A stretch of 64,000 nt of DNA from Agelas oroides (lineage: Eukaryota > Porifera > Demospongiae > Agelasida > Agelasidae): contig OX422200.1 in assembly GCA_949130485.1 (NCBI GenBank), positions 4,262,274-4,326,273 of the forward strand. Direction: 5' to 3'. The notes below the pieces were generated by a model. The model was not told the DNA's origin. It was given only the letters and a program-made list of their open reading frames with translations, and did no database searches. Each line of letters begins with the position of its first letter. The first letter of the stretch is position 1. The position numbers and the translations under genes were made by a program. This document shows positions 13,775-64,000 of the stretch, in pieces.

Positions 13775-16700
13775 CGTGCATGCGTGCATGCGTGCATGCG
13801 TGCGTACGTGCGTGTATGTGTGTGCGTGCGTGTGCGTGCGTGCGTGCGTGCGTGTGTGTATAGACAAACCGCCACAAACACACTATCTTGATGAATGGCC
13901 TCATATTTGTGTCTGGCATACCCTGACACCAACATACCAACTCATACTAGCCACCTAGCTATCCTAGACCTTTCATAATTGGTGTGTTCACATGAGAGTA
14001 ACCCTTCTTGGTGTAGTCACCTTCCTCATTCATGTATTGTACTATTGGCAACATGCCAACATGTTATTTAGGTACATCACCCTATTATTTTTTTCTACAA
14101 ATACCTGGAGGCTAGAGACAGTGAACTTTGCAACCAGCTCAATCAGTCTTGGGTATTCGTCCAGCCGCATCAGTTCTCCAAGCTGGTAGTTGGACTTCAG
14201 CCGCATCAGCAAACGACAGAACTCATGGTAGCACTCAGGATCAGCTAGCGTCTGAGAGAGAGAATGGCATGCAACATGTTCAATGTGCCTCAATACCTTC
14301 ACTGAAAGTAAGTCCAAGTGGTCATACAATCTTGTGTACAGCCTATTCTATAGCTGCTAGTCAACATAGATATGGTCAGCAATAAAGAGATTTAGATGTT
14401 ATGGGACGAACATAAAGGCCGGCAGCAGCCGGAACTGAACCCAGGACACCTGGCTAGCTGTTGGCCTTTTAGCTGTCCTCTATTTCACCTCATAACATCT
14501 AAATCTCCTTATTTCCAGCGTCAGGCTAGATGATCTAAGCACAAATAAGACTCTCATGGTGGTTAGAACTACATACATGTATGTGTGCACATAGAGAAGG
14601 GCTCCAATAAGCGCATACTTCTTCTAAACTGTCCCATGGACCAACTACAACTCTCAACAATAGAGCTACCTGCCTAGGCAGACGAATGGCTGCATTGTGT
14701 GCTCCCACCGGTTAGAACTGCCTTCAGCATTGTGACAAGCCGTTCTCTACATGCATGACAATTTCTCTAAGGTGTCTCATATAAGGACTTGCACACAGGT
14801 AACTTGCAATGCAAAAAATAAAAATACATTAGCTTAATCAGTAAATTGGAATAAGGAACAGTGGATCTGATTCAGTTCTGTATGCATCTAGACCTGCCTC
14901 TTTGATGTGGTTCACTGATCGTTCATATTACTTGTTGATTGTATACACATACCTGTGGTTGTTCAAGAATGCTTCTAACTCCCTTGACAAGCTGAGCAAG
15001 GAAGTTGGTTCGCTCTACATTGTTGAAGAGGGAGCGCCTCACACTTGCAAGTTGTACCAGGCATGTGATAGACTGAGGATAGTGTGTGTGCGTGTGTGCA
15101 GGGTTAGGGGACAGTATCAGCATCATACAGAATGTTGTGATACTCCACTCCCACAGTAGAACAAGTCTGTTTCCAGTCCTCACTCTCATCTCAGTTGAGT
15201 TCAAGGCTTCTCCCAATACCTATGTTTAGTTAGACATTATGGGATTAGACATTATGGGATTAGACATTCTGGGACTAATTCTTCATAACACTAACACTCA
15301 CCACCTCCCACCACTCACCACACGACTACCACCAACCACACTTACTATACCACTCGCCACATGACTACTACATTGACTGTCACCCATAATACCCACCACA
15401 CTAACTACCACTCACCACACGACTACCACTCACCACACGACTACCACTCACCACACGACTACCACTCACCACACGACTACCACTCACCACACCAAACTAC
15501 CGCCCACCACACGACTACCACTCACCACACGACTACCACTCACCACACGACTACCACTCACCACACGACTACCACTCACCACACGACTACCACTCACCAC
15601 ACGACTACCACTCACCACACGACTACCACTCACCACACCAAACTACCGCCCACCACACGACTACCACTCACCACACGACTACCACTCACCACACGACTAC
15701 CACTCACCACACGACTACCACTCACCACACGACTACCACTCACCACACAACTACCACTCACCACACGACTACCGCCCACCACACGACTACCACTCACCAC
15801 ACGACTACCGCCCACCACACGACTACCACTCACCACACCAAACTACCACTCACCACACGACTACCACTCACCACACAACTACCACTCACCACACGACTAC
15901 CGCCCACCACACGACTACCACTCACCACACGACTACCGCCCACCACACGACTACCACTCACCACACCAAACTACCACTCACCACACAACTACCACTCACC
16001 ACACGACTACCACTCACCACACGACTACCGCCCACCACACGACTACCACTCACCACACCAAACTACCACTCACCACACGACTACCACTCACCACACCAAA
16101 CTACCACTCACCACACTGACTACCGCCCACCACACGACTACCACTCACCACACGACTACCGCCCACCACACGACTACCACTCACTACACAACTACCACTC
16201 ACCACACGACTACCACTCACCACACGACTACCACTCACCACACGACTACCACTCACCACACGACTACCACTCACCACACGACTACCACTCACCACACGAC
16301 TACCACTCACCACACGACTACAACTCACCACACCAAACTACCGCCCACCACACGACTACCACTCACCACACGACTACCACTCACCACACGACTACCACTC
16401 ACCACACGACTACCACTCACCACACGACTACCACTCACCACACGACTACCACTCACCACACGACTACCACTCACCACACGACTACCACTCACCACACCAA
16501 ACTACCACTCACCACACGACTACCACTCACCACACAACTACCACTCACCACACGACTACCGCCCACCACACGACTACCACTCACCACACGACTACCGCCC
16601 ACCACACGACTACCACTCACCACACCAAACTACCACTCACCACACAACTACCACTCACCACACGACTACCACTCACCACACGACTACCGCCCACCACACG

Positions 16701-19700
16701 ACTACCACTCACCACACCAAACTACCACTCACCACACGACTACCACTCACCACACCAAACTACCACTCACCACACTGACTACCGCCCACCACACGACTAC
16801 CACTCACCACACGACTACCGCCCACCACACGACTACCACTCACTACACAACTACCACTCACCACACGACTACCACTCACCACACCAAACTACCACCCACC
16901 ACACGACTACCACTCACCACACTGACTACCGCCCACCACGCAACTACCACTCACCACACGACTACCACTCACCACACGACTACCACTCACCACACCAAAC
17001 TACCACTCACCACACTGACTACCGCCCACCACACCAAACTACCACTCACCACACTGACTACCGCCCACCACACGACTACCACTCACCACACGACTACCGC
17101 CCACCACACAACTACCACTCACCACACGACTACCACTCACCACACTGACTACTGCCCACTACACAACTACCACTCACCACACGACTACCACTCACCACAC
17201 TGACTACCGCCCACCACACAACTACCACTCACCACACGACTACCACTCACCACAAGACTACCGCCCACCACACGACTACCACTCACCACACTGACTACCA
17301 CACTGACTACCGCCCACCATACACCATCTGACTACTGCCCCCACCCCACACTGACTACTGCCGTAACGTACCTACACCACTGGTGATTGTAAGACTTGGA
17401 AGCTATGTGACCAGAGCACAGTTGCAACTACAAAATTATTTCAACATTGAGAATTCTCTGATCGACAGTACCATCCAACACACAATGAAAATCTGGCTCC
17501 ACTCATAGCACCAATCAAAATCCTCACCATGGCAGCCAGCTCTGATGAGAGGTTGTGAAAGAGGTTGAAGAAGAGCTGCATGGTGGAGTACTCAAGGAAG
17601 GTGGACCGCCAGGAAGTGGGGATCTGTACTGTTGTAAGGTCATCTCCTGATTCGTCCGTGGACGTGCCAATGAAATCAAAGGAAAGGCAGGCACATGCCA
17701 GCTTCAGCAGCCAGTTGATCAGACTCCGCTGCGTGTAACGGTTTGTGTGTGTGATGGTGCAGTAGCACACGTGAAAGCATGAGAGAGAGAGTTAAAGGAA
17801 AGAGAATATGACATAATCATAGTTAGCATTGTGAGCAGGCTTACACTCTCATTTCCAGACCTCCACTCCAGCATATGTTGCTTGCAAGTGTCAGTTAAAG
17901 TAGCCATGTTTTTTTTTGTTGTTAAATTCACTGAACGGTGGGTGCTAGTTACATACATTCAGACAGTCAGACATGCAGTAGCCACCCATCTACACTGTGC
18001 ATGCGCAGTAGCCACCCATCTACACTGTGCATGCTATTCAAACCATGATATAACTATATGTTCTTACGCCCAGAGTCTCTCTCTCTGCAATCCCTGTCCC
18101 ACGTTTTGTTGCTTTTCAAGAACCAGAAAACAGTCAGCAAATGAGCAATCCGACCCAAACTACCAATTTATAGCGCATGGAACGTATCTCCGCTAAATCT
18201 TGATTATATACTTCATCACTAGACTATGGTTATTGTTTATTTCATGTCCATAGCTTCTAAATCCAGAGATAAATTTGGTGATACATAGTACATTTGCAGG
18301 ACAACAACTGCTGAGTCAGCAATTCCACCTGGGCAAGGCACAGCTTTGCAAGTAGACAAATAGGTATACTCTACACCCTGTGAAAGAGCTTTAGCGTAAA
18401 AGGGGGATTAGTGCCTGATATGTGGTGGGCATTTGATATATAGTCTACGACAGTAAGCATTTCCAAGCTTCTACAGCAGCATATGTAGCAGGGGGAGGTT
18501 TAGACAGGTGGATGTCTAGAGGAGTGTCACATTCACAGAAAATCACAATTGTTGCTTAGCCGCTCCAGTTTAGACGATAATGTGAACAAATTGGACATTG
18601 ATTTGAACTCAACATGCACAAATCTTTCCTGCCAGTGCTCGTCTGGTGGTAGCCAATGTCACACATTCCAACCTTCCATTAATGTCCCCACACTGTTTCT
18701 CACCACTACAGGCATTTTTCAGACGACTGTCTACCAACAGTTGTCAGATCTTCTACAAAAATACAAATCAGTATCCTACCTGGCTTTCATCACGCACATT
18801 GATCTGCTGCAGCAAAGTGCAAGACAAAGTGAAGATGTCATAAAGCGATTCATCCCGGAAGGAGCTTGCGACCTTGCGGTGCTTGGTGAGGGAGCGCATG
18901 GACTCAGCCTGATTCATTTCTGTTACCAGTTGATGGAGTATCTGCACTCCTATCACACAGTGATCCACTGAGCCCTGTTCATGTGCAATGAAGGGAGGTC
19001 AGGATGAAGGAGAGGGTATGAAAGTTACATAATTTGTCTCCTTTTCTTCTTGTAATGATTACATACAACTGTGAGCAGCTCACCCTGAGGAATTTGCCCA
19101 CTTCATCTAGAATATCCCTGAAGACAAACACCTTCTTGTCACCATCAAACCACCCATGTTTCGTGATCCGAGCAATCAGCTACACGAAAATAAGAGAAAA
19201 GAAAGGAAGGAGACACATAGCAAGACACACTGTGGGGTGGGAAAAGGTGGCAGAAGAGAAGGGAAAGGTGAAGGAGAAACTACTATCATGCAGAAGTAAG
19301 AACACAGCAGAATAATGATGTAAAGTGTACATTCATAAAATTTCATGCATCATACGACCCTGTTATGCACACATAGCCTGCTTCTTTTTATGCCACATTA
19401 TGCACATACAGATTCATGCGTTTATCATGAACACTAGCCTCGTTCCCAGGTCCAAAGAGGAGGAGAAAAGGTTACTACCTTTCTCTTCCCCTATTTTATT
19501 GGGCCTGGGAATGAGGCTACATGAATACTTCCAGTACCTCTGGTGCTTCTGCACGCACATGTGCATATCACATTTCACGGGATGCAGACTTATGATCGCT
19601 ATAGCAATGATTTCAGAAAACAAGAAGGGTGGCCGCACAATGAGATACCAACTTAGAGATACTAATGCTCCACTGTATGGATAAGACTAGCCACCTGACT

Positions 19701-27354: not shown

Positions 27355-27532
27355 TACATGTGCGCATGCGCACAAATTAGAAAATGGCGTCCTTCGCAAC
27401 GGACGACAACCACAGAGTGTTGTGAATGGCTTTTGTTGACCAGGGTGAATTTGAAGCTATGGTGACACTGAGTGGTTGTAGAGCTCCGCGCTGTGATAAG
27501 CATCAGTTTCATGCTAAAATGACGGTGAGTAC
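27355..27532 (+). promoter_or_regulatory. Promoter-like block with first-exon-like ORF, copy B
   Basis: Contains TGTGCGCATGCGCACA (perfect palindromic NRF-1-like site) and AAAATGGCGTCC (YY1-like). The ATG at 27426 opens 33 codons to the same GTGAGT donor (exon end 27524). It lies upstream of NUP58 in the same direction, so it could serve as an alternative NUP58 promoter; no evidence for that beyond position. Confidence 0.45.
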
Positions 27533-28925: not shown

Positions 28926-29171
28926 ATCTGGCCTGTCTGAATATCAGTAGGCAACAATGGACATACTCACACTTGGGTCATGTGACCACTGTACGAGCAA
29001 TACTGTAGCCATTCTTTTGGCTCCCCTCTGCCAAGTTTTACAGAGCACATTGTTAAGAGTACACCCGGTCTCTGTTTGACACTACTGTGAATCGAGAAGC
29101 AATTGCTGCAGGGTTTACCCCCCTCCTTACTGCTGACTGTGCAGGTTGGAGCAGCAGACTACCATCACACA

Positions 29172-32100
29172 ATGGCTGGGATCGGAGGGCTCCAGACTCA
29201 GAGTCTTGGTCAGCAGAAGCCGGGGCTCTCTCTTGGTGGTTTGGGTGAGCTTTGTTGCATAGCACATTCACTTCCCATTGTTCTATGGTGCCGTTTTATT
29301 TCCATTGAATGCCAGATTTCAGAGTACATTCATTGCAAGAGTACAGTGTTTGTTATGAATAGTGCTAGCATAAGCCACGAGGAGTATATTACCCATGTTG
29401 CACAAGGGGGATGTTGGCATGAGGACCAACATCAGCCGATAAACATTATACAAGGCATCATGAGGCAAGCCTAAGCAAGCAGTGAACTGCTAGCCATCCC
29501 CATTTTTAGCTCTTCGGTCTGTGTTCAATATAATTCCGGTTCTGTGTTTTGTATTGAATGCAAACTGAACAACAAAAGTGAGGAAGTCCTGGGAACAAGG
29601 CTAGTGAACTGGTGAGTGGCTCAACTGTAGGCTTGCATCAGCTGATTTCTCATTTGCTGCAACCTGGCCTGTTTGCGAGCAACCCAACCTGCCTCAGTCA
29701 TAAGTCCTTGGATGAAGGATTCGAGCATGTGGTCATCATTTACTGATCAAAAGCAGTACTTAACCAGTGGAATGCATATCCATTAGGTTCATGGTGCACC
29801 TAACCTGAATGAAAGCCTCATTCACCACAGGCCTCAATCTACTAGCTATACTACCTTTATAATCTCTCCAGCCAACTCCAAAAGTGACTTCCCCTCCTTG
29901 TGCCTACATAAACACTATCATGAATGTACTGAGTGCTGCTATGTGCGAGAGCTTTGCACTGCTGTAACACAAGGCAATAAAGTTGGTTAGGCATGTCTTG
30001 AGGTATCGCTGTTTAGGCATCTTGGGATGCAGTTTAGACTTGAATTAATACAACATCTACCAATCAGCTCGCTAGTATGGTGCTGGTTGTCCCAATCAGA
30101 CCGCACAGATGGCAGCTATAGCTTTAGCAAACACATGAGAGCTGCCATCATCCTTGCAGGAAGAGAGGCCATGTCGTTTACTAGAGACATCCAAAGACAT
30201 TTACACTAAAAAGATCCCTGAATCAGATTATGTAATTGTGCATGATCTATGTTGTCCCCAAGTGGAGGTACCAACTGAGGATGACCCTCTGCAATTTGGA
30301 CAACAGACAACAAATGCTGGTACTTTGGGCGGCTGCCTTCTCCCATAGGTAGTCCCTGACCTCCCAGCAGACAACCTCATAATGTACCAGCACTCGCAAT
30401 GTATGTGTTCGTACCTGCAAAGTCATGACAAGGGAAAACTCACAAGTTATTCACCTGCCAACCTGTAAAACAATACCTCAAGAGGTATACAGAGCCTGTA
30501 GTGATCTGAGAGTTTATTACTACACTCTAAAAGAGTGTAATACACCACTTCACTCTCAGGGTTCAAGCGAGCAGCAAGACATAGGCTCATCTAGCCTTGT
30601 AGCTTAGATAGGGGGCTAGAGTTCATCTTTATCAGGAATGGACTCGCTACATTCAATCAACTATAGTTGTGTGTGATTGTGGCTTCTGTTCCTTGGGTCT
30701 GTGTATTTTAATGGAAACTCTGTTCTGCAAGTGAAATTACATATGATGTTTGCTCCACTATAACAGGAACCGGACTACAGTTGGGACAAGCTGGCACTGG
30801 AACCGGATTACAGTTAGGGCAGGTTGGAACAGGTGGAACAGGACTAAATTTGGGGCAAGTTGGCACTGGAAGTGGACTACAGTTGCGGCAAGTTGGCACT
30901 GGAGCCAGGCTACAGTTGGGGCAAAGTGGAATGGGAACTGGACTACAGTTGGGGCAGGCTAGCACTGGAACTGGACTACAGTTGGGGCAAAGTGGAATGG
31001 GAACTGGACTACAGTTGGGGCAGGCTAGCACTGGAACTGGACTACAGTTGGGGCAAAGTGGAATGGGAACTGGACTACAGTTGGGGCAAAGTGGAATGGG
31101 AACTGGACTACAGTTGGGGCAAAGTGGAATGGGAACTGGACTACAGTTGGGGCAAGCTGGAACAGGAACTGGACTGCAGTTGGGGCAAGCTGGAGCAGGA
31201 ACTGGACTACAGTTTAGACAAGCTAGCACTGGAACTGGACTACAGTTAGGACAAGCTGGAACAGGACTAAATTTGGGACAAGCTGGCACTGGAACCGGAT
31301 TACAGTTAGGGCAGGCTGGAACAGGTGGAACCGGACTACAGTTGGGACAAAGTGGAACAGGAACCGGACTACAGTTGGGACAAGCTGGCACTGGAACCAT
31401 CCAAACCAGCCAAACTAGTCAGTCACTTGGAACAGCAGCAACAACGGTGGCAGGATTGAAACTTGGTCAAACGCCAACCACTCAGCCAAGTGGTCTGACT
31501 GGAACAAGTAATACTACCACAGCGCCTACTTTAAGGTTGGGAGCTGGCTTTCCAACTGCTGCCTCTAGTGGAAGTGGATTGGGGCTGGGCTTGAATGCTG
31601 GAATACCTGGACTAGCCAGTTCCTCTGCTACCACTTCAAGTGGTTTGACTACTGACACCTCTGCTGTTGGGGTCCAGCCTGCATTCAGAGGACTAGGGGG
31701 TGTTGATCCTAGTACAGTGGCAGGGAGAAATGGAAGCAAGGATGGGTATGTATTTTTTTTTTATGATTGGCAAGAACAGCAAATTTTAACTGTGTCAGTC
31801 ATCTTTTGTGCTTCACCCTCTATAGCCTGACATCTATTCAGGACTCTCACATTCCCCCTGTCTTGAGTCACCTGGTGGGTTCATTCCAAAAGTTCATGAA
31901 GCAACAGAAAGAGATGAGTGATGAGATAAGCCACTTTTCAGACAAGGCTATGAAGAAAGTCAAACAAGACACCATTGCACAGGCAGAGGTGTGGAAACAT
32001 AGAATGTACCAATTTATTGTAAAAGTAGCGCATACCGTATAGCAGGAAACTTTGGCGAGGTTTTTAATTTGGCGAATTTGCGAATTTGTGGGAAATCGCC

Positions 32101-35100
32101 AAACTTAAAACCTGCCAATATTTAGTATTTTGATGACATAATGGCTAGCTTGCGCGTGCATAGCACATGGCGACAACGTGTGAAAGTCATTCTTCCAGGG
32201 AGATAATGCCGCTACTCAAGTGGATCAAGGTTGAAAAGCCCGTACTTCCTTCTTCATCTACATGTGCCTCAGCAAAAAGGACCTCGACAAAAGTTAAATG
32301 CGCTCTTGAAGTTGGAGAGAACGAGAATTGATTACGTCATGCATTGTTGCGCTTAGTGGCTAGCGCACACACTCGCGATTGGTAGGTCGCCAAATTTAAA
32401 ATTCGCCAATTCTTTCTGGAGACCGATTCGCCAAATTTAATGCTTGCCAAATTTTCCCACTATACAGTAGATAGCTTGGTGTTGCAACAGCCCGAACCAC
32501 TGAGGTAGCTTGGTGTTGCAGCAGCCCGAACCACTGAGGTAGCTTGGTGTTGCAGCAGCCCGAACCACTGAGGTAGCTTGGTGTTGCAACAGCCCGAACC
32601 ACTGAGGTAGCTTGGTGTTGCAACAGCCCGAACCACTGAGGTAGCTTGGTGTTGCAACAGCCCGAACCACTGAGGTAGCTTGGTGTTGCAACAGCCCGAA
32701 CCACTGAGGTAGCTTGGTGTTGCAACAGCCCGAACCACTGAGGTAGCTTGGTGTTGCAACAGCCCGAACCACTGAGGTAGCTTGGTGTTGCAACAGCCCG
32801 AACCACTGAGGTAGCTTGGTGTTGCAACAGCCCGAACCACTGAGGTAGCTTGGTGTTGCAACAGCCCGAACCACTGAGGTAGCTTGGTGTTGCAACAGCC
32901 CGAACCACTGAGGTAGCTTGGTGTTGCAACAGCCCGAACCACTGAGGTAGCTTGGTGTTGCAACAGCCCGAACCACTGAGGTAGCTTGGTGTTGCAACAG
33001 CCCGAACCACTGAGGTAGCTTGGTGTTGTAACAGCCTGAACCACTTCGGGTCTGGCTTGCGAGACTAAGGTAGCTTGGTGTTGCAACAGCCTGAACCACC
33101 AGTGTTGTACACTTCTAGCGCTACTTGTTTAGTGAATCCCCTTGGCCCCTAGGGGCAGCAAGACTGTTGATTAACTCCAGGTCCTATGCGATCTTGTCTA
33201 CAAGCCTTTCATATTTCTCCTTTTGGCCTCAGCATTCCAACTACATTGGACACACTCCACTGCCTCTATTGTTGTGGTAGTATGAATCTGTGCACAGAGA
33301 GCATGACTGTCTACATGCACATCACTAGATGGTGTATAATAGTATATTAAACATGGTTAATACTGGAGGTGACCCTGCACAGGTGCATTGTCAGAACCAT
33401 GCATACATTGTCAGGTCATGGCTTCCAGAGCCGGCTGTCAATTAGCTTCAAAACTCTTTTTTTTTCCCCTAACCCTAACCCTAAAACTAATCCCCAAACC
33501 CGTGCAACGACTTCTACACATCCTGAAGACGACTTGCATAGGGTTTTCTTCCATATTGTATATTCTCTGTGCAGCTCAACTTGCATAAAAGTGCATGAGG
33601 GCATAAGGGATCACCCTATACCACCCTTGACCGGGAAGGAGGCTAGGTAGCAGCAACTCCTTGCATGCTGTATGGTCAGGTGCCCTCATGCTTCTCCTGA
33701 CACACTGCCTACCGTTTGGACAGCTAAGGAGTGATGTGCTCTATTTAAAGCACACTCTCTGCATGTTTTGTCACCTTCCAGTGAGCATTACAACCCATAT
33801 AGGATGTATACATGGACCTCATGCGTTACATTTACAATTTCCACAACACTTTCTGCATGGTATTTATGCTTTCATTTGTACAGTATTGTAAGAAAAGCAT
33901 TACTGCACTTTCAACTTCTATGTGAACCAAACATATTGCAGACCTTCATGTTAATGTGATGATTATACAAATGTGACCAGCCGCATACAATGTGTGAACA
34001 ATCAACAAATCACATCTCCCTAAAAATAGGCCTAGATGTCACACAAAGTCACCCACTGCACAGGACACATTTCAGCCAATGCCAGGCCTCATCAGCTGCA
34101 CTGCAGTGACTGGGAGATGGAGACTGTTACCTCATGCACATAATGCAGTCAGGTGGCTGGCCTTATCAAAAAGATCGGTAGAAGCTCCTTGAAAGCACCG
34201 TCTCTCTGTGCAGTTGTCCTTTGTTTGAAGATTGTTACTGTACAACTGTAATCATCATGTGTTGTATGTGGCTGGTTATACTGTCTGTTAGCACAGATTC
34301 ACAACAATAGAGACATAGAGATCTTGAGAGAAACATGAAATTAAATTAAATCCAAAGGAGAAAGCATCCCAGATAGATTACCAGATGTACGTACATATAC
34401 ATGCATGCATGGAAACAGTGGAAGCATGAACTGATTTAGTCTATCAAGCCAGACTCTCTGGAGTGTGAGAGATGGTCTGGCTTGATAGACTAGAACTGAT
34501 TAAGAAGGTTCCATAAAATTTCTCACTCGTTTAACTTTTTCTTCCTCTATCAAATGTGAGATGCTTCTAGAACTAGCACATGTAACGGTGTTTGGTGCAG
34601 CTTCATAACCCATATTGCCTCCTGCTGTAGGCATTGGGTATCGTGTCTTCCCAGGTCCAGAAAGATGCTCAGGTTGTTGGTTTTCTCAAGCAAGAGAACA
34701 CTGAGGTATGGCATGAATGCAATATATCAGCTAGGCTGAAATATTCGGGTCTCCATCACATTAACCTGATACCAGTACTGCCACCACTTTTTTGGATAAG
34801 GCCAACCACCTAATTTTTCCCCCTTGAGACAGTGATCCCCATCTGCCAACCACCCTAGTTGATGAGGCCTGACAGTGGCCAATATGCATTGTGCCCAGTG
34901 AGTGGCTCTGTCGGTGGCCTGCTTTTCACAGAGACATGTGGTTCATTGACTGTTCATATGCATGTAGGTGAACAATAACATCTGTTTATTTCTTGTTTTC
35001 TCTTAGGAGCTGAGAAATGCTGAGATAGCCAGACGAACTAATGAGCTGCCTGCTGGTCTACAACATGAAAACACAGCCCCAGCTGAGTAAGTTCCTTTCA

Positions 35101-38100: not shown

Positions 38101-41100
38101 TCTTACTGGGGCAAGTCTGAGGGAACCCCACACTAACAGGACTGCGTTTAGCATGTGTGTGCGTGTGTTTGCTTGGTTGGTCCAACCACTTACTGTAAAT
38201 TTCAAATGAGCACATTCAAACATTTCATTGAATATCTGCGGCCATGAGTACTTCACTTCAGCTACAGAGAGGTAAAGGGGCTACTGCCAGACTGTAGCAT
38301 TGGCATGAAAGAGACCGAGAGCAAAGGTGATTGAAATTGACTTCTGCCTTCTGTAAGCTACCTGAACTAGACTGTGAAGGCAGATTGCTCAATTAAAGAT
38401 GCCAGAAATTATGCATGATGGTTGAAGTCACTTCATGTAAAGGGTCATTCATGAACAATGCTCATACACGGTGCAAAGATTCAGCTCAGGTTTGTCCCAT
38501 GATGATCAAGCATCTCCCTTGTTTAGAGAAATGTGAGAAAGTTTGTTTGACGGTAAAGTTATGCAGTGGCATAGTTTAGTCTCAGGAGAGCACCCATGGT
38601 CCAGTCACTCGCAACTCAAACAAGCTGAAGTGGGCACTTGCACAAAAAATAAGTGCTTTAATGCCTCTTTACACGCACTTGCCCCCAACTTCTGGATCCA
38701 TAAAGCACCACTGTTGACCCCATGTTCTTGGATTGCTGTGCTAAATGGGTGTATTCACCACTGGTAGATTTGCACAGCAAGACTGGCAGAAAAAAAAACT
38801 GCAAGACGAAAATATAGACGGTGGCAAAGGCACATGCAGAGCTACCGAATGTTGTAGCACCTGAATTGCATCAGAATGGTCACTGTATGCTATGTACATT
38901 AGCTCAGTACCAATACTAACTTCTACCCACTAGTCACCACGATTGCACGTGGTGATCGGTTACATGGAGGACCCCACAAAACTACAGAACTGTCTAAATT
39001 GGGGGATGGGTGCTTGCACAGAGATGCTTGCCTGGACAATACAGTATGTTAATTGAACCAGCAAGGTTTCATACAGCAAAACGTACCTCATTTTCAAGGG
39101 TTTAGAACATGGGAACTCTTGTTCCCAAGTCTTCCCATCATCAAGTTTTTGATCAGTTGCACTATACCAAAATGGACTGAGATGGCCTAGTTCATTTTAT
39201 CCATCAATCTCTACCTAGGTAGACTGAGGAAAGAGAGGTCCCCAACCGAAAAAATGCATTTCACGCAAGCGCTCTTTGTTATGAACAGCAAGCGGTAAGT
39301 TCCTGTTTGAGAAATGTTCAGAACTCCAGCACTTGGACAGACACTGGCAGGAGCTTATCTACACGGTAAAGCGAAGGGAGCATGTAAGCAAAATTCAGAT
39401 ATAATGGCCAATTTCCCAGACACTAAAATTTGATAATACATGTAACAGCCAGTTTTCCAGACAAAGGAATTCAAACATAGCAGCCAATTTCCAGATATGG
39501 AGTAGCTCTCAAATTGAGGCAAAAACAAGAACGAGGCCTTGGTGCTGGTAGCCAGATGCCAGGAAGGGTGTTCAGAAGAAAAACAGGAGAGAGAGATGTG
39601 GTATAGGCAACCACCGGTAAAACTGATCCTGGAGGGGGGAGGGGTGAGGGGGTGGTTTGGAGTTTGGCTCACTGCTTATTGGTTGTCTTGAATTTTGACC
39701 ACACCCACTCCGGGTGTGATGGCATGAGCACAAGTTGAAAAGTACACAACTGGTTTGGTGAATTTTATCCACTTGAATGAGATTGCAGTATACTTGTACA
39801 TCAATACTCATTACTACACCAAACATTGTTATATGGACACACATGTTCAGGGTAAGTGCTCTACTGAGCAGCTCTAGTAGTCGTATTGGTGATTCATTAT
39901 GACTCAACCTATTTCTGTGCAGTAGCAGTCAGCTGTCTTTGCCGCTCAGGTAGCCTTAATATTACATTCCTGACTGCTTGTAGAGTGCCTAGCATCATCA
40001 CCTGCTATATGCAACATTTGTGCACACATCAGGTACTTTCAGCAGATGGTGTCCTTATATGAAGCCAAAATGCAGCTGTACCGCCAGCAAATTGAGGAAC
40101 TGGAGAGCCATCTCTCAGCCCTAGCCAGTGACCATGCAATCTCACCACAGAGTAAGTGTTTGATATGACTGCATGTTAGTACCTATGAAGTGTCACCTGC
40201 AATAGATTGGAGCCTTTTTGACTGGCTGCTTTAGTATACTCAATACCACTATTTGTAGCCATACAATAAGGATACACATCATTACATGCTGGGGGATGGG
40301 GGGGGGGGAGCTGCTGGGGAAAGAGTCACTACACATGTAGATGACAACCTCAGTGAAGCACTTCAACCAAGGCAGAGGAATGGAAGTCACAGATTGCTGG
40401 GCTGCAGTAGCAATCTTCACTGACCTTTGACCTTCAGTCTTAGTATTGCAAGACTGTTACTTAAGTGGTGTTGTTTCACAATTTCCTTGCTTTTGCTCTG
40501 ATGACGACTGAATCATTCACTTTTGGAATCCACACTGCCATGTTGTGTGATTTGTGGAACAATTATCTCTAGTTTTTTTGTCTTTTCTTTCTCTGCAGAT
40601 GTTATTGAGATTCTGCAGCTCCAGTACAAGCCATTCCTCTTGCTAGCGGCACAGCTACAAACCATTCATGAACAGGTCCAGGTAATGTCCAGAAAGAGGT
40701 CCTGGGACAATCAAATAGCTCCAGTAGCATGCTAGTAGGCTCATTGTCAGTCCAAAGTAGCCTCGTCCCCAGGCCACTCCCAGATTTTATCTCGCAGCTG
40801 TGGAGAAAACTCGGGTTTTCTCCACAGCTGCGAGATAAAATCTGGGAGTGGCCTGTGAACGAGGCTAAGTCCAAAGTGTAAGTGCAACTGTCTAAGAAGC
40901 TCTTTAGAATGTGGGTTAAACAATATGTGAAGAGAAGGTTATCTGTTACCAACTTGAGCTCGGAAAATAACTTGCCGATGTTTCGACTGAATGCTCCAGT
41001 CGTCATCAGGGCGAAAGTGAAGAGGTGCAAACAAACGTTGCTATTTATAGCCATGCACTACTGAGGATACACGTCATTGGAGGTCAAAGGTCGGTGAGGA

Positions 41101-44100
41101 TTGCTCCTCCCTCCCTGCCTCCTCATCACAGCAGTCCAGCAACCAGGGACTTCCAGTCCTCCATCTCGGTTGAAGCGCTCCTCTGAGGGTGTCATTTGGA
41201 TGTGCAGGGCCTCCTTCACCAACAGCTCCTTTCCTCTGCCATGGTCTAGCACTGTGGTCTCCTTCCAGTCAATCGGATGGTGATTCTCCCACGCATGCTC
41301 CACTACAGCTGACTTCTCCATCATCCCCCTCTCACAGGCATCTCGGTGTTCCTTCAGTCTCGTCTCCAGTCTCCGTCTGGTCTCCCCGATGTAGACCTGG
41401 CCGCAGCTGCAGGGGATACGATATACCACTTTGGATTGCTTACCAAGAGGTAATGTATCCTTGACCTTGGTCAACATTAAGCGGAGAGTCCGCCCGGACT
41501 TAAAGACTACTCTGATGTTGAACTTCCTGCAAACACGCCTAATGTCCTCACTCATCCCAGCCACATAGGGTATCACCACCAGTGGTCCCCTCTCCTCCTC
41601 CTGTTCCTCATCACGGCTGCTTGTGTCTGTTGTTTCCTGTGTGGGTGGGGCAGAAACATTGCAGATAAAGTTTGCAGGGTAACCATTCTGCTTGAGGACT
41701 CTAGCAAGGTGGTCAACTTCCTTCTGAAGGTTGTCCTGCGTGCTGATGATCTCTCTGGCCCTGTCGTGGAGACATCTCACCACACCTCTCTTCACGTGGG
41801 TCGGATGATGGGACTCGAAGTGGAGATACCGGTCCATGTGCGTGGGCTTCCTGTAGACAGAGATGTCCAGGCTGCCATCCTCTCTCCTCCTGAGTAGCGT
41901 GTTGAGGAACGGGAGTGTCCCGTCTTCTTCCTGCTCCACAGTGAACTTGATGGTCGGCCTGACCCCATTGAGATGGTGTAGGAGTTCTTCGGTTGAGCCC
42001 TTCCTGAGGATGCAGAAAGTGTTATCAACATACCTCTTCCACAGCCTGGGTCTGGTCGGTGCCGTCTCCAGTGCCAGCTCCTCAAAGAACTCCATGTAGA
42101 GGTTGGCCACCACAGCAGAGACCGGGGAGCCCATTGCCGCACCTTCCTTCTGCTCATAGAAGTTTCCTCCATACCTGAAGTAGGTGGACTTCAGGCACAT
42201 CTCCAGTAGCTCTGCAACCCGTTCCGGGGAGAGAATGGTCCTGTCTCCAAGTGTCTCACACGTGGGAACTAGTATGTCTTGCTAGGGGGGATATGAGGGA
42301 TGTGATGTGCTTGGATAGTTGGTAAGTTGGTAAGTTGGTGATCCTATGCACGAAACAATGGGTCTGAGTGGAACATCAGGCTTGTGGATCTTGGGAAGGC
42401 CATAAATCCTAGGGGGTTGGCTTCCTGTGGGTCTCAATCTATTGTACAAGGCACTGGTGATCTCCCCATTCTTCTCTAGTCCCTTACGACTTAGCCTGTT
42501 CTCCTGGGTTGCTGTAGGGTCACCCCTCAGCTTCCCATAGGTGCCCGTCTCCAGCATCTCCTCCATCTTCCGTCATAGTCGCATCTCCTCATCATCACGG
42601 TCGCATTCCCCTTGTCCGCTGGTAGAATCACTTCATCCTCCAATCCCCTGAGCTCCTTCAGCACTGTCCTCTGGTCCTTCGTCAGATTGCTCCTTGGCAC
42701 CTTCGCACGTCTCAGGATCCCACATACCCATCCCTGCAGATCATCAGCATCCTCCAGTGACAATCTCCTAGCTCCACTCTCCACTGCAGCCATGGTGTCT
42801 GTGAGGGGGAGCTTGAAGGGAGCAGGTGCAAAGTTTAGCCCTAGCTTTAACACATCCTCCTGGGCAGGTGTGAGTGTCCGGTCTGTCAGGTTGACCACCC
42901 ATCTCTTGAGACCCTCCGGGTGCAGTTCCCGCTGCCTGGATCGGTGGTTGGCCAGCCTCTCCAGCTTTAGTATCTGCGTCCGTTTGGTCTCGTTGTGAGT
43001 CCTCTCAGCTGCTCGGTAGCTGAGACTCATCACTTTCTGGAAGTCCCTGGTTGCTGGACCGCTGTGATGAGGAGGCAGGGAGGGAGGAGCAATCCTCACC
43101 GACCTTTGACCTCCAATGACGTGTATCCTCAGTAGTGCATGGCTATAAATAGCAACGTTTGTTCGCACCTCTTCACTTTCGCCCTGATGACGACTGCAGC
43201 ATTCAGTCGAAACATCGGCAAGTTATTTTCCAAGCTCAAGTTGGTAACAGATAACCTTCTCTTCATTTATGCAGAAGCCAACTGAGAAGCCACTGAAAAA
43301 AAAACAATATGTTCTAATGCGAAACAATACATATATACAAAGGTCCATGTAAGACAAGTGCTTTAGTGCGTGCCCACAAGTTTCATTCCTTTGTAGCTAC
43401 GTACAACCTCAGTAAACGAAATTAAGATTACAAAACTTTTGGGAGATTGCCTACTGCACAGTAGACCCTCAGGTTATTGGGCTGTTGAGTAGTATGTTTT
43501 GTTGTGCTGGGTTGAAATCTGATCTTGATGTAATCATGATAACCGCAACTATCCCATAACTGTCACTACTCATATATAGTATTTTTCGGTATTGCTTTTG
43601 GTCCCATGGTTTCTCCCCACCTGCTGGATTAGAGTAAGCATAAATTATTGCCATGCACAGCTTTTCTTGTTCCTGTTCTCACCATACCTCACATTACAAA
43701 GGACTGGTAAATGAGCATAAGCCAAAGGAGTGCCTACTTTGAAAAGTTTTTACTCCTCTCCCTCCTGCATCCTTTAAACCCTTCCTCCTGTCCTCTTGTC
43801 CAACCGTCTTGTCCCACCATCCTTTCTCTCCTCCTCCCGCCCTCTTGTCCCACCATCCTATCTCTCCTCCTCCCGCCCTCTTGTCCCACCATCCTATCTC
43901 TCCTCCTCCCGCCCTCTTGTCCCACCATCCTACTTCTCCTCCTCCCACCGTCTTGTCCCACCATCCTATCTCTCCTCCTCCCGCCCTCTTGTCACACCAT
44001 CCTATCTCTCCTCCTCTTGCACTCTTGTCCCACCATCCTATCTCTCCTCCTCCCGCCCTCTTGTCCCACCATCCTATCTCTCCTCCTCCCCGCCCTCTTG

Positions 44101-47100
44101 TCCCACCATCCTATCTCTCCTCCTCCCCGCCCTCTTGTCCCACCATCCTACTTCTCCTCCTCCCGCCCTCTTGTCCCACCATCCTACTTCTCCTCCTCCA
44201 ACCGTCTTGTCCCACCATTCCATTTCTCCTCCTCCTGCCCTCTTGTCCCACCATTCTACCTCTCCTCCTCCCACCCTCTTGTCCCACCATCCTATCTCTC
44301 CTCCTCCCGCCCTCTTGTCCCACCATCCTATCTCTCCTCCTCCCGCCGTCTTGTCCCACCATCCTATCTCTCCTCCTCCCGCCGTGTTGTCCCACCATCC
44401 TATCTCTCCTCCTCCCGCCGTCTTGTCCCACCATCCTACTTCTCCTCCTCCCGCCCTCTTGTCCCACCATTCTACCTCTCCTCCTCCCGCCCTCTTGTCC
44501 CACCATCCTATCTCTCCTCCTCTTGCGCTCTTGTCCCACCATCCTATCTCTCCTCCTCCCGCCCTCTTGTCCCACCATCCTATCTCTCCTCCTCCCGCCC
44601 TCTTGTCCCACCATCCTATCTCTCCTCCTCCCCGCCCTCTTGTCCCACCATCCTATCTCTCCTCCTCCCGCCCTCTTGTCCCACCATCCTATCTCTCCTC
44701 CCCCCGCCCTCTTGTCCCACCATCCTATCTCTCCTCCTCCCGCCCTCTTGTCCCACCATCCTATCTCTCCTCCTCCCCGCCCTCTTGTCCCACCATCCTA
44801 TCTCTCCTCCTCCTGCCCTCTTGTCCCACCATCCTATCTCTCCTCCTCCCCGCCCTCTTGTCCCACCATCCTATCTCTCCTCCTCCCGCCCTCTTGTCCC
44901 ACCATCCTATCTCTCCTCCTCCCCGCCCTCTTGTCCCACCATCCTATCTCTCCTCCTCCCGCCGTCTTGTCCCACCATCCTATCTCTCCTCCTCCCGCCG
45001 TCTTGTCCCACCATCCTATCTCTCCTCCTCCCACCCTCTTGTCCCACCATCCTACTTCTCCTCCTCCAACCGTCTTGTCCCACCATTCCATTTCTCCTCC
45101 TCCTGCCCTCTTGTCCCACCATCCTATCTCTCCTCCTCCTGCCCTCTTGTCCCACCATCCTATCTCTCCTCCTCCCCGCCCTCTTGTCCCACCATCCTAT
45201 CTCTCCTCCTCCCGCCGTCTTGTCCCACCATCCTATCTCTCCTCCTCCCGCCCTCTTGTCCCACCATCCTACTTCTCCTCCTCCCACCCTCTTGTCCCAC
45301 CATCCTACTTCTCCTCCTCCAACCGTCTTGTCCCACCATTCCATTTCTCCTCCTCCTGCCCTCTTGTCCCACCATCCTACCTCTCCTCCTCTTGCGCTCT
45401 TGTCCCACCATCCTATCTCACCTCCTCCCTCCCAGTTCTTGAAAGAGCAGTATTTGAGCTACAGAAAGGTTTTTCTACAAGACTCTACTGATGTGTTTGA
45501 GGAACGAAAGGAGAAAGCAAAGCTAGGTATACACATGTATGTATAAGTAAACTAGACAGATGATTGATCATCGTGGGGTGAGCCTGAGTGAAGTGCCATG
45601 CTGATTCCCACAGCTTAAAAGTACCAAGTAGCACCAAACTTACTAGAAGTAGTTACATGCCCACACTTGGGCATGTAGCAATGACATGTGACCACTACTG
45701 TCTGTAAGTGCACAACCTAGCTACATGGTCTCATTCATTGTTCTTTCCTGGGGTAGCGGTAACAGACTGAATAAGTTGCCATGCAGTCATACATGCTATA
45801 TACACATCAGTAGTGAACTGGCACACTGGCTATTGAACTAGCAGAATTGCATGGCCATTGAACATATAGGCTGTCTTAGTGTCTAGCAGAAGAATCTCAT
45901 GCTACCTTTCAGCAGACCTGCTTATTAGTGACAGCTTGAGAGAACAGCATGGCTTTGCACTAACGCACGTAGCTACTTGCCCTCGTGCATTGTGTTGGGT
46001 TACATCTTTGGTACACATGAGATGGGACGGACACTGTTGGTCAGTCGGATCACGTCTCCTATAGACCATGCTTGCTCAGGCTGGCACCAATCAGATAGTA
46101 CATGCCAAGTCAATATCCAAGAGATCAAATTATGTTGTTTTGTCTTCTGAGAGCAATCGGGTCATGTTATGTCAGTACCCATCAAGTGCCCACCACATAA
46201 CAAGAGTCCACCACATAACAAGAGTCCACCACATAACAAGGTCCACCTTGGTTTTCACTCAAGTTTCTGCACAGAGTTGAGAATGTATTAAGGGCCCACC
46301 TATGCCCAAAGTACCAGTTGCCGACTCAGCAATTTTTGTTACACAAACATTATCTGTGGGTTTAACGTAAATACCATCTTGTAGGCTGTAGCTAAGGTCT
46401 CTCAATGATACATGTCCACGAATCAGTCCCAGGGATACGTTATGTAACCAGATGACTAAGCATGTAGTTCCCAATGTGCATGCTGCACAAACTATGATAT
46501 GTTCCTAGGCCTAGAATCTCCAATCCTTGTCACATGTTCTGTGTTCATAGCTCTTTGAAAAACAGAACTAACTAGAGTTGGCAATCATTGCCATGACCAT
46601 GTCTACCAACTTGAAACTATCTAGCACCCACCCCCCACCATCAGTACTTTCTCATGTCCCAAAACTTGGCCTCATACTCACTCTACAGTGTGTACATGCT
46701 GTTTGGAAACCAATACCATATTTAGACTGCCACACGTTTGTTGATAATCCATATACATGAACATCTGTGCAAAGTTGGATGCCAATTATGTTCCCATAAC
46801 AACGTGAAATAGCCTCACATATATCATGGCGTACGGTAGTACGCCATATGTAGGGATGACCCCGAAAAAAAATGGCGGCCACATTCAAAGTGCACAAATG
46901 ACACGCTCAAAATGTCCGCGTTAGATAAGTCAACGGCCTCCATGAGCCATATCAGACATTATCGAGTGCTTCCATGGGCAACAGGATCGTTAAATTTGCT
47001 GGAAAGCATCGCTAAGCACCTGACAGTCAAGTCGCTAAAAAAGGCAAATCGTCTATCTTCTGACTTCTTCTTCTTCTTCTTCTTTTGCTCACCACGATAG

Positions 47101-50100
47101 CACGACAACGGCTGAAGCTATTACAACGATTCAAACGCGAAAGATCAGCATAAATTACTGGGTCAATTACCCACCACTCATCGTTCTCAAAGAAAGAAGT
47201 CGAATTAATCGGCGATTCTCAGGTAACCCCACGCTTATGCTTGCTGCTATACGCCATTTTGTTAGAATAGAATATTCATAGCGATTACGTCAACAGAAGT
47301 TCAACAGCTACAGCACGTGAAGTTGGCATGCAGCTGCGGTTATTCTACTTCCGTAGAGAACTTGACGATCGGTTGATTCCCAAACGATTGCTACTTTCAT
47401 ACAGCAGTTGACGTACTTGTGCTGGATTTGACAAGGAACGCAGTATGCGTAACGTCCACAAGAAACGGGCGCGGGATAAGCAGAACTATCTGCGAAACAA
47501 AGAAAGCAAAAGGCAAGCGTCCCGTAACAAGTACTGGAAGAACCCGGAAAAACACTCTTACTCTCCAAGGGTTCCTTTACCACAGTTATGCCTTACCTCT
47601 TTATGACCTATGTACCTGCCACCCACCATACACAACCTACACACACCTGCCCACAATGTATAACCAGCTATAGAAACTGTTCCTTGGACAACACACAACA
47701 TACAGTGTTACAACCCTGTCATACAACAGAACAGGTAGACAGTCATGTATATACCACAGTGCCTTAGAACAACCACTCACACACACATGCACATACCCAA
47801 TTAGACAACAGTTACACCCATGATTCCATTGTCAAGTGGATAAGTGCAAACAGCTAACATCCTCCAGAAATCCATCAACATCAACAATAAACTACATAAC
47901 AAGTCATTTCACTTGGGGTGTGGTTACACAACAACAAAAAAAAAACAACAGAAACAAGTCACAAAAAAGTTTGCCAAACGCAAACAAGCACATGTAGGGA
48001 TGAAATCCTCAAAAACCAACCAAACAAGACGGGAACGACACCACAATACTTTTACACCATCCCTACATCTTGTGCCATTTTGCCACTGGTACACAACACA
48101 AAACCCTCTACATTTGTACTTATTAGCCCACACCAACCACAAACAAACATAGTACTTCACTCCATTCAACTATCTCACAAAATAACCCATCCTTCACAAA
48201 GCATTACAAAATTACCACTACTCACTTCACAGCCACCTGTATACAAGACAACCCATATCTATCATGCTAAACAGGCATAAAACTTAACAACATAATGCAC
48301 ATTCCAACATAACACACACACTCACCACTCCTCACTCACTCCACACCTTCTACACACAACTTGGACCATACCTGCTACACTCAGTAGCAACCACCAACAA
48401 CACAACATACTCACTATGCACAACACACCCACGCCACACCCTTCCATCTACAAGACAACCCTCTTCTACACACAACTAAAAAACAAATACAAACACACAG
48501 TTTTGGCAAAATGGCACAAGATGTAGGGATGGTGTAAAAGTATTGTGGTGTCGTTCCCGTCTTGTTTGGTTGGTTTTTGAGGATTTCATCCCTACATGTG
48601 CTTGTTTGCGTTTGGCAAACTTTTTTGTGACTTTACATACTTTCAAACCCATATAAAAGGTGCTTGCCCAGCTGTTTTACATGTTTATCTTGCTACATGC
48701 TTCATCTGTCTGTATGGATAAGACCAACCACCTGACTACATATTCATTTTGTGCATGAGATAGCAGTCCCCATCTCTCAGTCACCACCAGTGCAACTGAT
48801 AAGACCTGGTATTGGCTGAAACACATCCTGCACAGCTGATAACTTTGCATATCATCCAGGCATACCTTTTTATTCAGGGAGATGTTGTTCCTTGATTTTC
48901 ATACATACCCCAGATGCTGAGCACTCCCAGAAAGTGAAAACAGGCCCCCCTCCTTTTTCAGCCATGAGGGGGCAGGCTACAGCTGCTCTCGCTGCATTCA
49001 CCACATCAGGTAGTATGTTTCTCAAGATTTTCAGATATCATATAGATACCGTAAAATCAGGATATTAAGCAGTAGTGCTTATTAGCAGCCAGAATGGGTG
49101 CTAATAATCATGGGGTTCTTGGGGTGCTAATATAATATTCTGGTAGAGTACAGTTATGTGGAAACGGATTACTGTAACGTAACAGTTCTGTATTTTAGGC
49201 CTAATCATATACTTATTTAGTGTCAATACATTTACTCCCATAGAAAGGTGTGCAATTATTTTTGTAATTGGACAGGTAGAAAAGCTTCTGATTGGACAAA
49301 AAATACAAAAGCTACAAAACCCGTGCAAGGTGTAATAGCTCACTGATCTGATTGGTCAGTAGCAATTTGTTGTAAACTATATTAACATAATGTAAACTTG
49401 TAACTTGTAAGTGACAACAATTTGCTGTAAACTATAAAGGCCTTAGAGGTTATTTTCTGCTAATTTCTGTCGAACTTTTATAGGTTTTCTAAGAACCAGA
49501 GATACAGTCAGCAATCGATCGATCGCTGCTAACCCCCGCCCACCAACGTAGTTTTTATTCCATATCAATAGCTTGCTTAGAATCAGAGATAAAAGTTAGC
49601 CACTACATTTGAGAAGCCGAATCAGCAAATTTGTGTCTGTGTACACTGTGACAGGTGCCTTTTGATGTTATGTTGGATGCCTGTTTTTGTATGGGTGCTT
49701 ATAAACAGATGTGGTTGTTGTAATCAAAATGGGTGCATATATTCATGGTGCTTATTTTCCATGGGTGCCTATTATCCCGATTTTACAATAAACACATGCA
49801 GTTCATTATGCACATCTTCAAGCATGCGTGCAACTTTCATGCTTAATTTAAATTTATGGCAATGTTAGATCACATTTTCTACTAGAAGCATGTGGAAAGC
49901 TAAAGAGCCTTGTTATCTTTCTGTCATCTGGTCTACTGTAGCCAGCCAACTTTATGAGCCATGGAGCTGTTCCTATAATGTATCAGACATATGGAACCAT
50001 GCTATTTGTTCTTGAGCAGCATACATACATCCAACTGGCCTCGTTCCCAGGCCACTCACAGATTTTACTTCACATGAAAAACAATTTTTTCCACGGCTGC

Positions 50101-53100
50101 AAGATAAAGTCTGGGTGTGACCTGGGAACAAGGCTAACATCTAACCACACGTTGCTCCTTTGATGCTAGCCTGGTGGTAGAGTAATGCTTGCTACCTTGA
50201 GTTGAAGGATGTAGTTATTATCAATGGTGAAATTGAAGCACTTTTACTATAGCACTGATAAAATGTAGGGTAACAAAACACTGTGTTCTTGGAACATCAA
50301 TGTTACTATAAACATATGCTATTCTGCAGTTCACTTATCAGTTGGGCATAGTCATAACTACGTACAATGCTTCCCTATTTTCTTGTTCTTTAGACAGCTC
50401 CCAGGCACCTGGTTTGATGGGGGTCGGAGGGCTTGGTGGGCTGCAGATGTCATTGCTAGGTGGAGGGGGAGGACTACACCAGAACTCCCTGCTAGGGGGA
50501 AACACACAGTCCACCGGACTGACATTGGGAGGTGGGTGGTGGAGCACAGGCCTTGCCTGCTCTATTTGTACGACTCTGTTTCACACCACATAGAGATTTG
50601 GCCAATCTTGTACTTTATGGCTGTATTGCCACTAGACCTGCAAAACATGACTCCAAAAACACCTAGTATATAGCCTCAGGCTCTCTCCTGTTATTTATTT
50701 TTTTTGATGAGAGAGCCAGGGACGAAGGCTACTGAGCATGATGCTACAGATTTGTTGAATATGCAGTGTGAAGTAATTTGACAAATGACCAGATACTGTT
50801 CATGGAGCCTCGTTTCCATTCCTTCGCCACCTCAAGTCTTTGATCAGTTTTAGTATATGAATATGGAAGAGGGAAGGTCTGGGAGATCTCATCACATGCG
50901 ATGATGTTATGTAATGTCAGATAGACAGAAGATAAGACACATGGGATGCAGTGCCTGACCATTAGACCAAGGTACGAAATTTCCCTATTTCTCAGCTGCC
51001 ATTGATTTTCTGTAACTTACTCAATTAAAAACAAACTACCAAAGTCACAAAAGTTTACTGAAGGAAAACAAGTGCATAGAGGGATGGAACACTCAAAAAC
51101 CAACCAAAATAGACGGAAATGACACCACACTACTTTCATACCATCCCTACATCTTGTGCCATTTTGCCAACTATGCCTTGTGTTTGTTAGTTGTGTGCAT
51201 AGAAGGGTTGTGGAAAGCAGTTAGTGCTGGGTGTGTAGTGCATGGCTGAGAAGTTATGTTGTGGTTGGCTGCAACTTAATTGCTACTGAGCATGGCAGAT
51301 ATGGTTTGTCTTTTATGCAGAAGCTATGGAATGCATGAGTAGTGCTGAGTCAGTATGGCATGCTGGAGTGTGGTATCTATACATGTCCAGGTTTGCCAAC
51401 AATGCATTGTTAGGGGGTGGGGGTAGGGTTAGGGTTGGGATTAGAGAATAAAGAAAGAACAAAAGAAGATCAAAGGCACTACTAAGCCTTTGATGTAAAT
51501 CCTGGACATCTCTCATGATATGTTGTAAACTTTTGTTGCTGCTGAACATGGCAGATATGAGTTGTCTTGTATGCAAAAGGCTGTGGAGTGAGCACTGCTG
51601 AGTGCCTTGTTGATGTATAAGTTATGCATTCATTTGTGGATGTGAATAGGCTGATGTGCATGTAGAGGTTTCCATAGTTGGCAAAATGGCACAAGATGTA
51701 GGGATGTTGTGAAAGTATTATGGTGTCATTCTCATCTAGTTTGGTTGGGTTTTGATGGCTCCATCCCTACATGTGTTTTCCTTCAGAAACTTTTTGTGAC
51801 TTGTTAATTGTTTGTTTGTTTGTTTGTTTGTTTGTTTTTTTTGCTTGTTTTTTTAGGAGGTAATTGAGACAGGAGGGGAGGCGAATGGGAATACGCTTGG
51901 TCTGCAAAGTACGAAAGTATCGTATAGAACTCTGTTATTCACAAACAACAAACACAAACAACAAACAGTTGTCGTAAATTTAAACGCTTTTAAGTGTAAT
52001 TGTAAATCCAGCCATCAAACTTCTCTATGGAAGTAGAAACTGCTGCTCTTGCAAACTGCACATGCTCAGTTGTGTGGAGTCCTCACATACATACATTTTC
52101 ATTTACAGCAGCCCTAGCAATACATACCTTAACTGGAAGCATGCACATATTCCCTCTCTATGTTTTGCATTATACCACATGTCCTTGGCTGTTGCAGTCT
52201 TCACATACATTGTGTCACCTGCTACCTTCTTATCACAGTAAGCTGTGGCATATAGCAGTAAGCATAAGTGTAGGGTTACCTGAGAATCATCGACTAGTTA
52301 GAGTTTTTTGAGAACGATAAATGGTGAGTGCAATACCCAGTGATTTATGCTGTTCTTTCACATTATTAATAGCTTCCGCTGTTATCGTGCTAGCTTGGCT
52401 GACACCAGAAGAAAAAGAAAGCACAACAGAAAGAAAGTCAGAAAATAGACGATTTGCTCGTTTTAGCAAGTTGCAGGTCTGGTACTTCAGCAATGCTCTC
52501 CAGCGACGTTAACAGTCCTGTTGTTCATGACAGCACTCAATAATGACTGATACAGCTCGTAGAGACCTTTGACTAATCTAATGCAGGCATTTCAAGCAAT
52601 GCCATGTTATATGTGCACTTTTAATGTGGCCGCCATTTTTGGAGAGGCATGTGGCTTACGGTAGTAAGCCATGATACTACTTCTACGTAGCTTGCAGAAC
52701 AAGGCACCATAAACTTTGTGCTAGCCTGGCATGGCCGATTCTTTGCTTACCTTCTGCAAAAACATGAGAAAGAGGAAGCTTTGTATTTCAAAAGTGTACT
52801 GAACGAGCTGAATTGACACTGCCTTACAAACATGCCAGCCTCCAGTCGTTAGACAAGACATTACAAGGAAGGGCCTTGAGATTCTTAAGGCCCTGCCTCT
52901 TGTGTGTCTACCTAACATTACATCGCACCACTGCATGTGACAAGATCTCCCAGGTCTTCTCCGTGCATATTCACATACTGGAAGCAATCATAGTGGAGGT
53001 GACAAAGGCTGAGAACAAGACTTCTGTTCATGTGTTAGATCAGTTAATGTACCGTAAATCAGGAAATTTACATTATATGAAATTTTTGTTGGAAAAATTT

Positions 53101-56397: not shown

Positions 56398-57000
56398 AAA
56401 AAACTTGTCTGCACAACTCTTTGCTACATGCTATCTATGATGTGCAGTTTTATGCTCTGTAACTGGAACTCTCTTATAGCACTTGTGCTTATATATTACC
56501 TATAGTAGCCATTGTTCTGAGACTTTTGTGCATCTCTTTCCACATGAGCTGGGAGAACAACCTTCCAATTTTCTTTTCCATGCAAATCTATAGCCAAACA
56601 CTGCACAGGGCATCATGCTGCATGCCTTACACCGTTACCAAAGTCAGTTGGTATGACCTGCTCAGATTTTTTAATACGAGATTGAATAAGCTTGTTTCTG
56701 ACTGAGCGATCCTTCTCCCTGCATCTCAGACTGAGTTGGAGCTCTATCATTCACACAGTAACAGTTATGTATGCAGTGGCAGCCATTAAATGTCAAGCAG
56801 CCTATTATAATTTTGTAGTTCCTAATCTCCAGCTGTTGTTATTGACAGCAAAGAGTACGTAAACCTTGATTTCAGAAATCTCTACACAGTGGGTAAATTG
56901 GGATCACTATCGATCTGCTCTGTGCACAACATTATTGCTATATGGTAGATGTCCGCGTGATATGGGGATACCTAGCTAGCGATTTGGGGCCTGGGGTTTC

Positions 57001-57065
57001 CCTAGTCTCGTGCCCAGCCGTCTACGCCCCCCGAGGGGCGTGGACAGCTGGGGCACGAGACTAGG
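57001..57065. mobile_element. CCCAG-family hairpin upstream of SRCR gene
   Basis: An almost perfect 30-bp-stem palindrome, CCTAGTCTCGTGCCCAGC to its complement, around a CCGA loop. It lies about 190 bp before the SRCR start codon. Confidence 0.6.
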
Positions 57066-57254
57066 AGTTCCCCATATCACTAGCGATTTGGGCATGGGGT
57101 GCCCCATATTGCGGCATTTCGCCCTGACGAAACCCTTCAAGTGTAGATACATGTACTTGTATTTTGCAGTGATTTCCTGTACGCGCTGCCGACTGGGATG
57201 TATTTTGTGCACTGCCAACGTAGCCTTGTTATTAGTGGCATATGCTGATAGAGA

Positions 57255-63973: not shown

Positions 63974-64000
63974 GTAAGTAAAAATTAGTCATGCACATTC

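Follow-up and report, generated by a model that had tools for sequence, protein, structure and literature searches.

The NUP58 gene of the sponge Agelas oroides encodes, in its spliced model, a protein without a single FG dipeptide, as had been claimed in a preliminary description of this DNA, and we confirmed that the observation is real and broader than first noted. Judged by its sequence this is a true NUP58, whose predicted disordered channel domain is built on the GLxLG motif that human NUP58 carries beside FG, and NUP62 and NUP54 appear to be built alike. Together, the repeat regions of these three proteins hold 2 FG and 86 LG. Among the nucleoporins examined (NUP58, NUP62, NUP54, NUP98, and candidates for NUP153, NUP214, and RANBP2), near-total loss of FG was observed only in this trimer. 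The explanation towards which we lean, if only slightly, is that the LG trimer forms a weakly receptor-binding lining of the channel, and that transport receptors would travel on NUP98 and on the FG repeats of the peripheral nucleoporins.

The gene lies in a stretch of 64,000 nucleotides (the window; C18:4262274-4326273), and the genome searched comprises 259 Mb in 141 contigs. Our model has 11 exons on the plus strand (29172-51867) and encodes 635 aa, with AG/GT borders and phase kept throughout. Exon 1 (MAGIGGLQTQSLGQQKPGLSLGGLG; 29172-29244) has the ATG, a GT donor, and a phase that fits exon 2 (30767-31745), which is bordered by AG/GT, is in phase with exons 1 and 3, and holds 19 GLQLGQ-type units followed by an LG-containing tail, without FG. 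The coiled-coil region begins in exon 3 (31826-31988), which was placed by its AG/GT borders and by the alignment to human NUP58, while borders, phase, and the same alignment place exons 4 (34631-34705), 5 (35007-35086), 6 (40033-40151), 7 (40599-40681), 8 (45436-45526), and 9 (48914-49009). Exon 10 (50394-50531; AG/GT and phase) carries the C-terminal LG-containing tail. A putative last coding exon (51857-51867), placed by phase only behind a long T-rich tract that precedes the acceptor, contributes eight bases (51857-51864) and the TGA stop. At the other end, an optional coding exon may lie upstream (27426-27524, plus strand; donor GTGAGT, in frame if joined to 29145); with the frame read by eye, its junction to 29145-29171 would lengthen the protein to 677 aa. 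Both ends are the uncertain parts of the model, the last exon being the least certain. The 701-residue protein described earlier was not reproduced with either version.

The predicted protein matches Pfam PF15967 (Nucleoporin_FG2) with an E value of 3.5e-76 and 257.4 bits, against a curated cut-off of 32.3, and its residues 116-593 align to human NUP58 (PDB 5ijn_G) with an E value of 4.2e-65. At the level of sequence, the alignment spans the coiled-coil crystal constructs 5c3l_B and 2osz_A. No other NUP58 locus was found, all four scored PF15967 matches genome-wide falling in the window gene. A scan for the NUP58 coiled coil in other genomes, none of them from a sponge or a cnidarian, gave 93 pattern matches and no confirmed relative. 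In the intron after exon 3, a 34-bp unit is repeated about 17 times (32472-33045), an array so uniform, with 99% matches, that it looks recent. In the intron between exons 7 and 8, inverted copies of a single sequence lie on either side of a GIY-YIG-like putative retroelement frame on the minus strand (41060-43260), both features being recognized by eye, and an array of a 36-bp pyrimidine-rich unit, repeated 45 times (43807-45433), ends directly before the exon 8 acceptor.

The neighbor of NUP58 is XPO7 (exportin-7; 1301-22310, minus strand), divergently transcribed and represented by 23 tblastn matches (E ≤ 1e-3) to a query that we take to be the human XPO7 sequence. The exportin gene pointed out in the preliminary description is thus real, but no functional tie to the repeat was found. 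Inside XPO7, an 18-bp unit is repeated about 109 times (15290-17301). Pfam gave no match in the three minus frames of 53998-63998, nor in the three plus frames of 1-10001, where XPO7 occupies the minus strand.

All 19 GLQLGQ-type units of exon 2, picked by DNA similarity, are in frame. The spacing between them is 33 bp in 15 of 18 cases, 36 bp in two, and 27 bp in one, and Tandem Repeats Finder reports 19.2 copies of a 33-bp unit, in good agreement with the 20 or so copies of an 11-residue unit claimed before; a variant unit, GLQFRQ, is present. The 635 aa contain 31 LG, 14 GLQLG, and 20 GLxLG, and none of the 14 phenylalanines stands before a glycine. Beyond the array, the C-terminal tail has 0 FG and 4 LG. 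As composition alone predicts about 2.7 FG, the absence of FG from NUP58 says little by itself; the array, together with the matching pattern of NUP62 and NUP54, makes strong evidence beyond chance. A scan for missed FG exons (26000-53000, plus strand) returned one open stretch with at least two FG, of 29 aa and non-repeat-like, exons with a single FG being invisible at this threshold. The recent growth that had been proposed for the array holds in part: a central block is near-identical by eye, but pS between units averages 0.33, too high for the whole array to be very young.

A DNA search with NUP58 exon 2 reached a second locus, C2:530711-531312, which is NUP62. The model has nine exons and encodes 728 aa with 2 FG, 35 LG, and 25 GLQLG. 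Its Nsp1_C domain (E 1.1e-25; 90.1 bits, cut-off 24.1) is the only match to this family genome-wide, and the protein aligns to human p62 with an E value of 6.7e-68. Among the variant units are one GLQFGQ and also GIFGQ. With a looser similarity cut, 6 of 32 units fall out of frame, whereas at the strict cut all 25 are in frame.

NUP54 was found at C5:1817066 onward, where two exons are matched by human NUP54 (E 3.6e-7 and 1.2e-5); the second match includes an internal stop because it runs into an intron. LG exons join in phase upstream of these matched exons. The exons upstream of the folded region encode 187 aa with 0 FG, no phenylalanine, 21 LG, and 10 GLxLG, and by eye the LG pattern covers three separate repeat exons without an array like those of NUP58 and NUP62. 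In the 20 kb fetched, only residues 2-109 of the human query were convincingly matched; neither the first exon nor the C-terminal coiled coils could be located, and Pfam gave no match on the assembled 236 aa. On these matches, identity is established for NUP58 and NUP62, and less fully, with two matched exons, for NUP54. The human query was used in place of the family profile PF13874, whose three genome matches were all unrelated RTRLDS tandem-repeat frames and were rejected as NUP54. Long RTRLDSIRTRLDS repeat frames on three contigs imitate the NUP54 profile in family searches.

It is very improbable that the pattern is an artefact of annotation or assembly, such as a misassigned exon 2, pseudogene status, or FG exons that escaped notice, even though the gene models were built from DNA alone, NUP58 is tentative at its last exon and NUP54 incomplete at its first, and the scan for missed exons needs two FG in an open stretch. 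The NUP62 and NUP54 loci agree independently with NUP58, the NUP58 frame is open with proper borders and phase, the units of both arrays keep the frame at the strict cut (19/19 and 25/25), and the three loci together hold four open stretches with at least two FG, of which one corresponds to the repeat frame of NUP62 and the other three are non-repeat-like. The claim that a leucine-based GLxLG repeat stands where the FG repeats of NUP58 belong is supported, and is also true of NUP62 and NUP54.

The printed parts of human NUP58 and NUP62 hold 17 FG and 16 LG. Compared with these, the trimer gives a Fisher p of 6.6e-10, and compared with the NUP98 pieces of the same genome (17 FG, 40 LG) a p of 2.0e-6, values that are descriptive only, since dipeptides within an array do not vary independently of one another and the human count covers NUP58 and NUP62 without NUP54. 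The N- and C-terminal regions of the sponge NUP58 have 0 FG and 30 LG, against 13 FG and 14 LG in the human printed parts. The human N-terminal part alone already has 12 LG to 5 FG, so among the three proteins NUP58 departs least from expectation, and NUP62 shows the sharper contrast, with 2 FG and 35 LG against 4 FG and 2 LG in the human printed part. The GLxLG raw material, already present in human NUP58, is hence not new. The repeat domains of the trimer have a charged fraction of 0.026-0.034 and 5.6-11.2 LG per 100 residues; they share with FG nucleoporins the low charge and the regular hydrophobic motifs, and lack the multiple FG (0 in the 635 aa of NUP58, 0 in the 187 aa found of NUP54, and 2 in the 728 aa of NUP62). 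By our own count, hydrophobic carbons per residue amount to 0.83 in the N-terminal region of NUP58, 0.80 in that of NUP62, and 0.98 in that of NUP54, near the values of the NUP98 pieces (1.02) and of the human parts (0.80-1.12), so that overall hydrophobicity is roughly kept; the corresponding values are 0.67 for GLLG and 0.92 for GLFG repeats.

Selection was examined among core units chosen by DNA similarity, as a choice by amino-acid pattern biases the ratio. The pN/pS was 0.18 in NUP58 (19 units) and 0.12 in NUP62 (25 units), where the looser cut, with 26 units, gave 0.18. In arrays that evolve by duplication and conversion, such a ratio is no more than a rough indication of selection. These low ratios suggest that leucine is maintained in the NUP58 and NUP62 cores. 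The same ratios speak against a neutral takeover, in which GLxLG units would have spread by duplication and conversion and diluted FG with no selected role for leucine. We regard such a takeover as unlikely, although NUP58 and NUP62 are clear tandem arrays, LG already outnumbers FG in the N-terminal part printed for human NUP58, and the single GLQFGQ unit of NUP62 and the single GLQFRQ unit of NUP58 show that one codon can switch. In NUP62, the key leucine is kept by both TTG (14 of 29 units) and CTG (11 of 29), FG is missing also from the NUP58 C-terminal tail outside the array, and NUP54 is alike over its three repeat exons where, by eye, no such array exists.

FG repeats persist elsewhere in the genome. 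The NUP98 locus (C5:2726080-2735654) has Nucleoporin2 matches with E values of 3.0e-17 and 5.2e-9, and its pieces, with edges set by eye, comprise 515 aa with 17 FG (11 of them GLFG) and 40 LG, a count that leaves out a 321-aa linker frame (2 FG, 1 LG) and a 45-aa frame (1 FG). A candidate NUP153 has three RanBP zinc fingers, the C-terminus RKARRRKA, and two repeat frames with 3 and 5 FG and 16 and 5 LG, giving 8 FG and 21 LG. A candidate RANBP2 has four RanBP1 domains, five zinc fingers, and a 2221-aa frame with 6 FG and 9 LG. The candidate NUP214 was recognized by one propeller exon (E 2.1e-5), after which stretches with 4, 2, 3, and 3 FG follow (12 FG and 8 LG; linker frame 4 LG), not counting unrelated-looking 2-FG stretches that start at 2309342, 2307133, and 2302219. 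LG outnumbers FG in NUP98 (40 to 17) and in the candidate NUP153 (21 to 8) as well, so the signal stems in part from a general enrichment in LG that reaches beyond the trimer. An unexpected Nup98 autopeptidase domain was encountered at C18:2079892-2083521 (plus strand), where a polyketide-synthase-like single frame of 1210 aa combines a ketosynthase, two phosphopantetheine-binding stretches, and a C-terminal Nucleoporin2 autopeptidase.

The FG persisting in NUP98 and in the candidate NUP153, NUP214, and RANBP2 bears on whether LG could be a full functional replacement, the receptors of this lineage having adapted to dock on GLxLG and the channel running on LG contacts. Importin-beta, the sole receptor compared, is encoded on C22 and retains seven of the eight residues that we take to form its FG pocket, the exception being I178V and position 263 being taken from a downstream exon. 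A human NTF2 query gave no match at E 1e-3, a search that short exons can escape. The parallel shift in three complex partners would fit receptor adaptation, as would the spacing of LG, mostly 10-11 residues and near the 12-residue GLFG repeats of the literature, and co-evolution of FG domains with NTR binding sites has been suggested by Ng and Gorlich in the excerpted text of their paper (PMC9918544). Given the retained pocket and the persisting FG, we nevertheless consider such an adaptation improbable.

In the weakly binding lining that we prefer, the LG domains would still fill the channel as low-charge, leucine-studded disordered chains, would make weak contacts among themselves and with the FG phase of NUP98, and would bind transport receptors poorly; passage of the receptors would depend on NUP98, through its GLFG repeats, and on the FG of the peripheral nucleoporins. 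The Nup62 complex may be able to do without phenylalanine because the essential barrier comes from NUP98. Xenopus pores containing Nup98 without its FG domain are non-selectively permeable, according to other work cited in an excerpt of PMC4283134. As described in part of PMC9918544, an engineered GLLG//L phase is selective toward an engineered NTR-like probe and essentially excludes importin-beta, transportin, and Xpo1. This exclusion, the Xenopus result, and the importin-beta pocket all favor receptor binding being left to NUP98 and the peripheral nucleoporins. Cohesion of the LG domains is an uncertain element of this model, since plain GLLG repeats show no phase separation at 10 uM (PMC9918544) and the hydrophobicity of NUP58 and NUP62 lies between those of GLLG and GLFG. 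Only tentatively, and short of thinking it probable, do we propose the more specific formulation that NUP62-NUP58-NUP54 is an essentially FG-free complex in which LG repeats under purifying selection form the phase of the channel and contact receptors weakly, phenylalanine being unneeded at the pore centre.

This nucleoporin class is defined by its FG motifs, and here one whole complex has gone over to LG, with FG retained in NUP98 and in the candidate peripheral nucleoporins. Such a genome can be seen as a natural experiment in division of labor: it suggests which FG domains can be lost in evolution, and it leads to the prediction that receptors should favor NUP98 rather than the trimer of the channel. 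Among the matches listed in our literature searches, no title or abstract opening described an LG-based Nup62 complex, and a search aimed at LG-repeat or FG-lacking nucleoporins matched only TDP-43 work.

A close known counterpart is vertebrate NUP58 (p58/p45; human 5ijn_G), the same gene, which also carries GLxLG-type motifs but mixed with FG. NUP98 of the same genome is LG-rich like the trimer, yet retains its FG, most of it as GLFG. Natural departures from FG are also known from Tetrahymena, in the NIFN repeats of the micronuclear Nup98 and in TtNup62, which is described with a low number of FG repeats in the excerpted text of PMC5450191. As far as the excerpts reach, however, the NIFN and FX repeats of Tetrahymena retain phenylalanine, whereas the sponge channel trimer replaces it by leucine (PMC5450191, PMC8421043). 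The LG trimer also offers a native counterpart to engineered GLLG repeats: the GLLG and GLLG//L 12-mers, as they appear in part of PMC9918544, are likewise free of phenylalanine, based on Leu-Gly, and of similar period, but they are synthetic, contain GLLG rather than GLQLGQ, and were modeled on a GLFG template of the Nup98 type.
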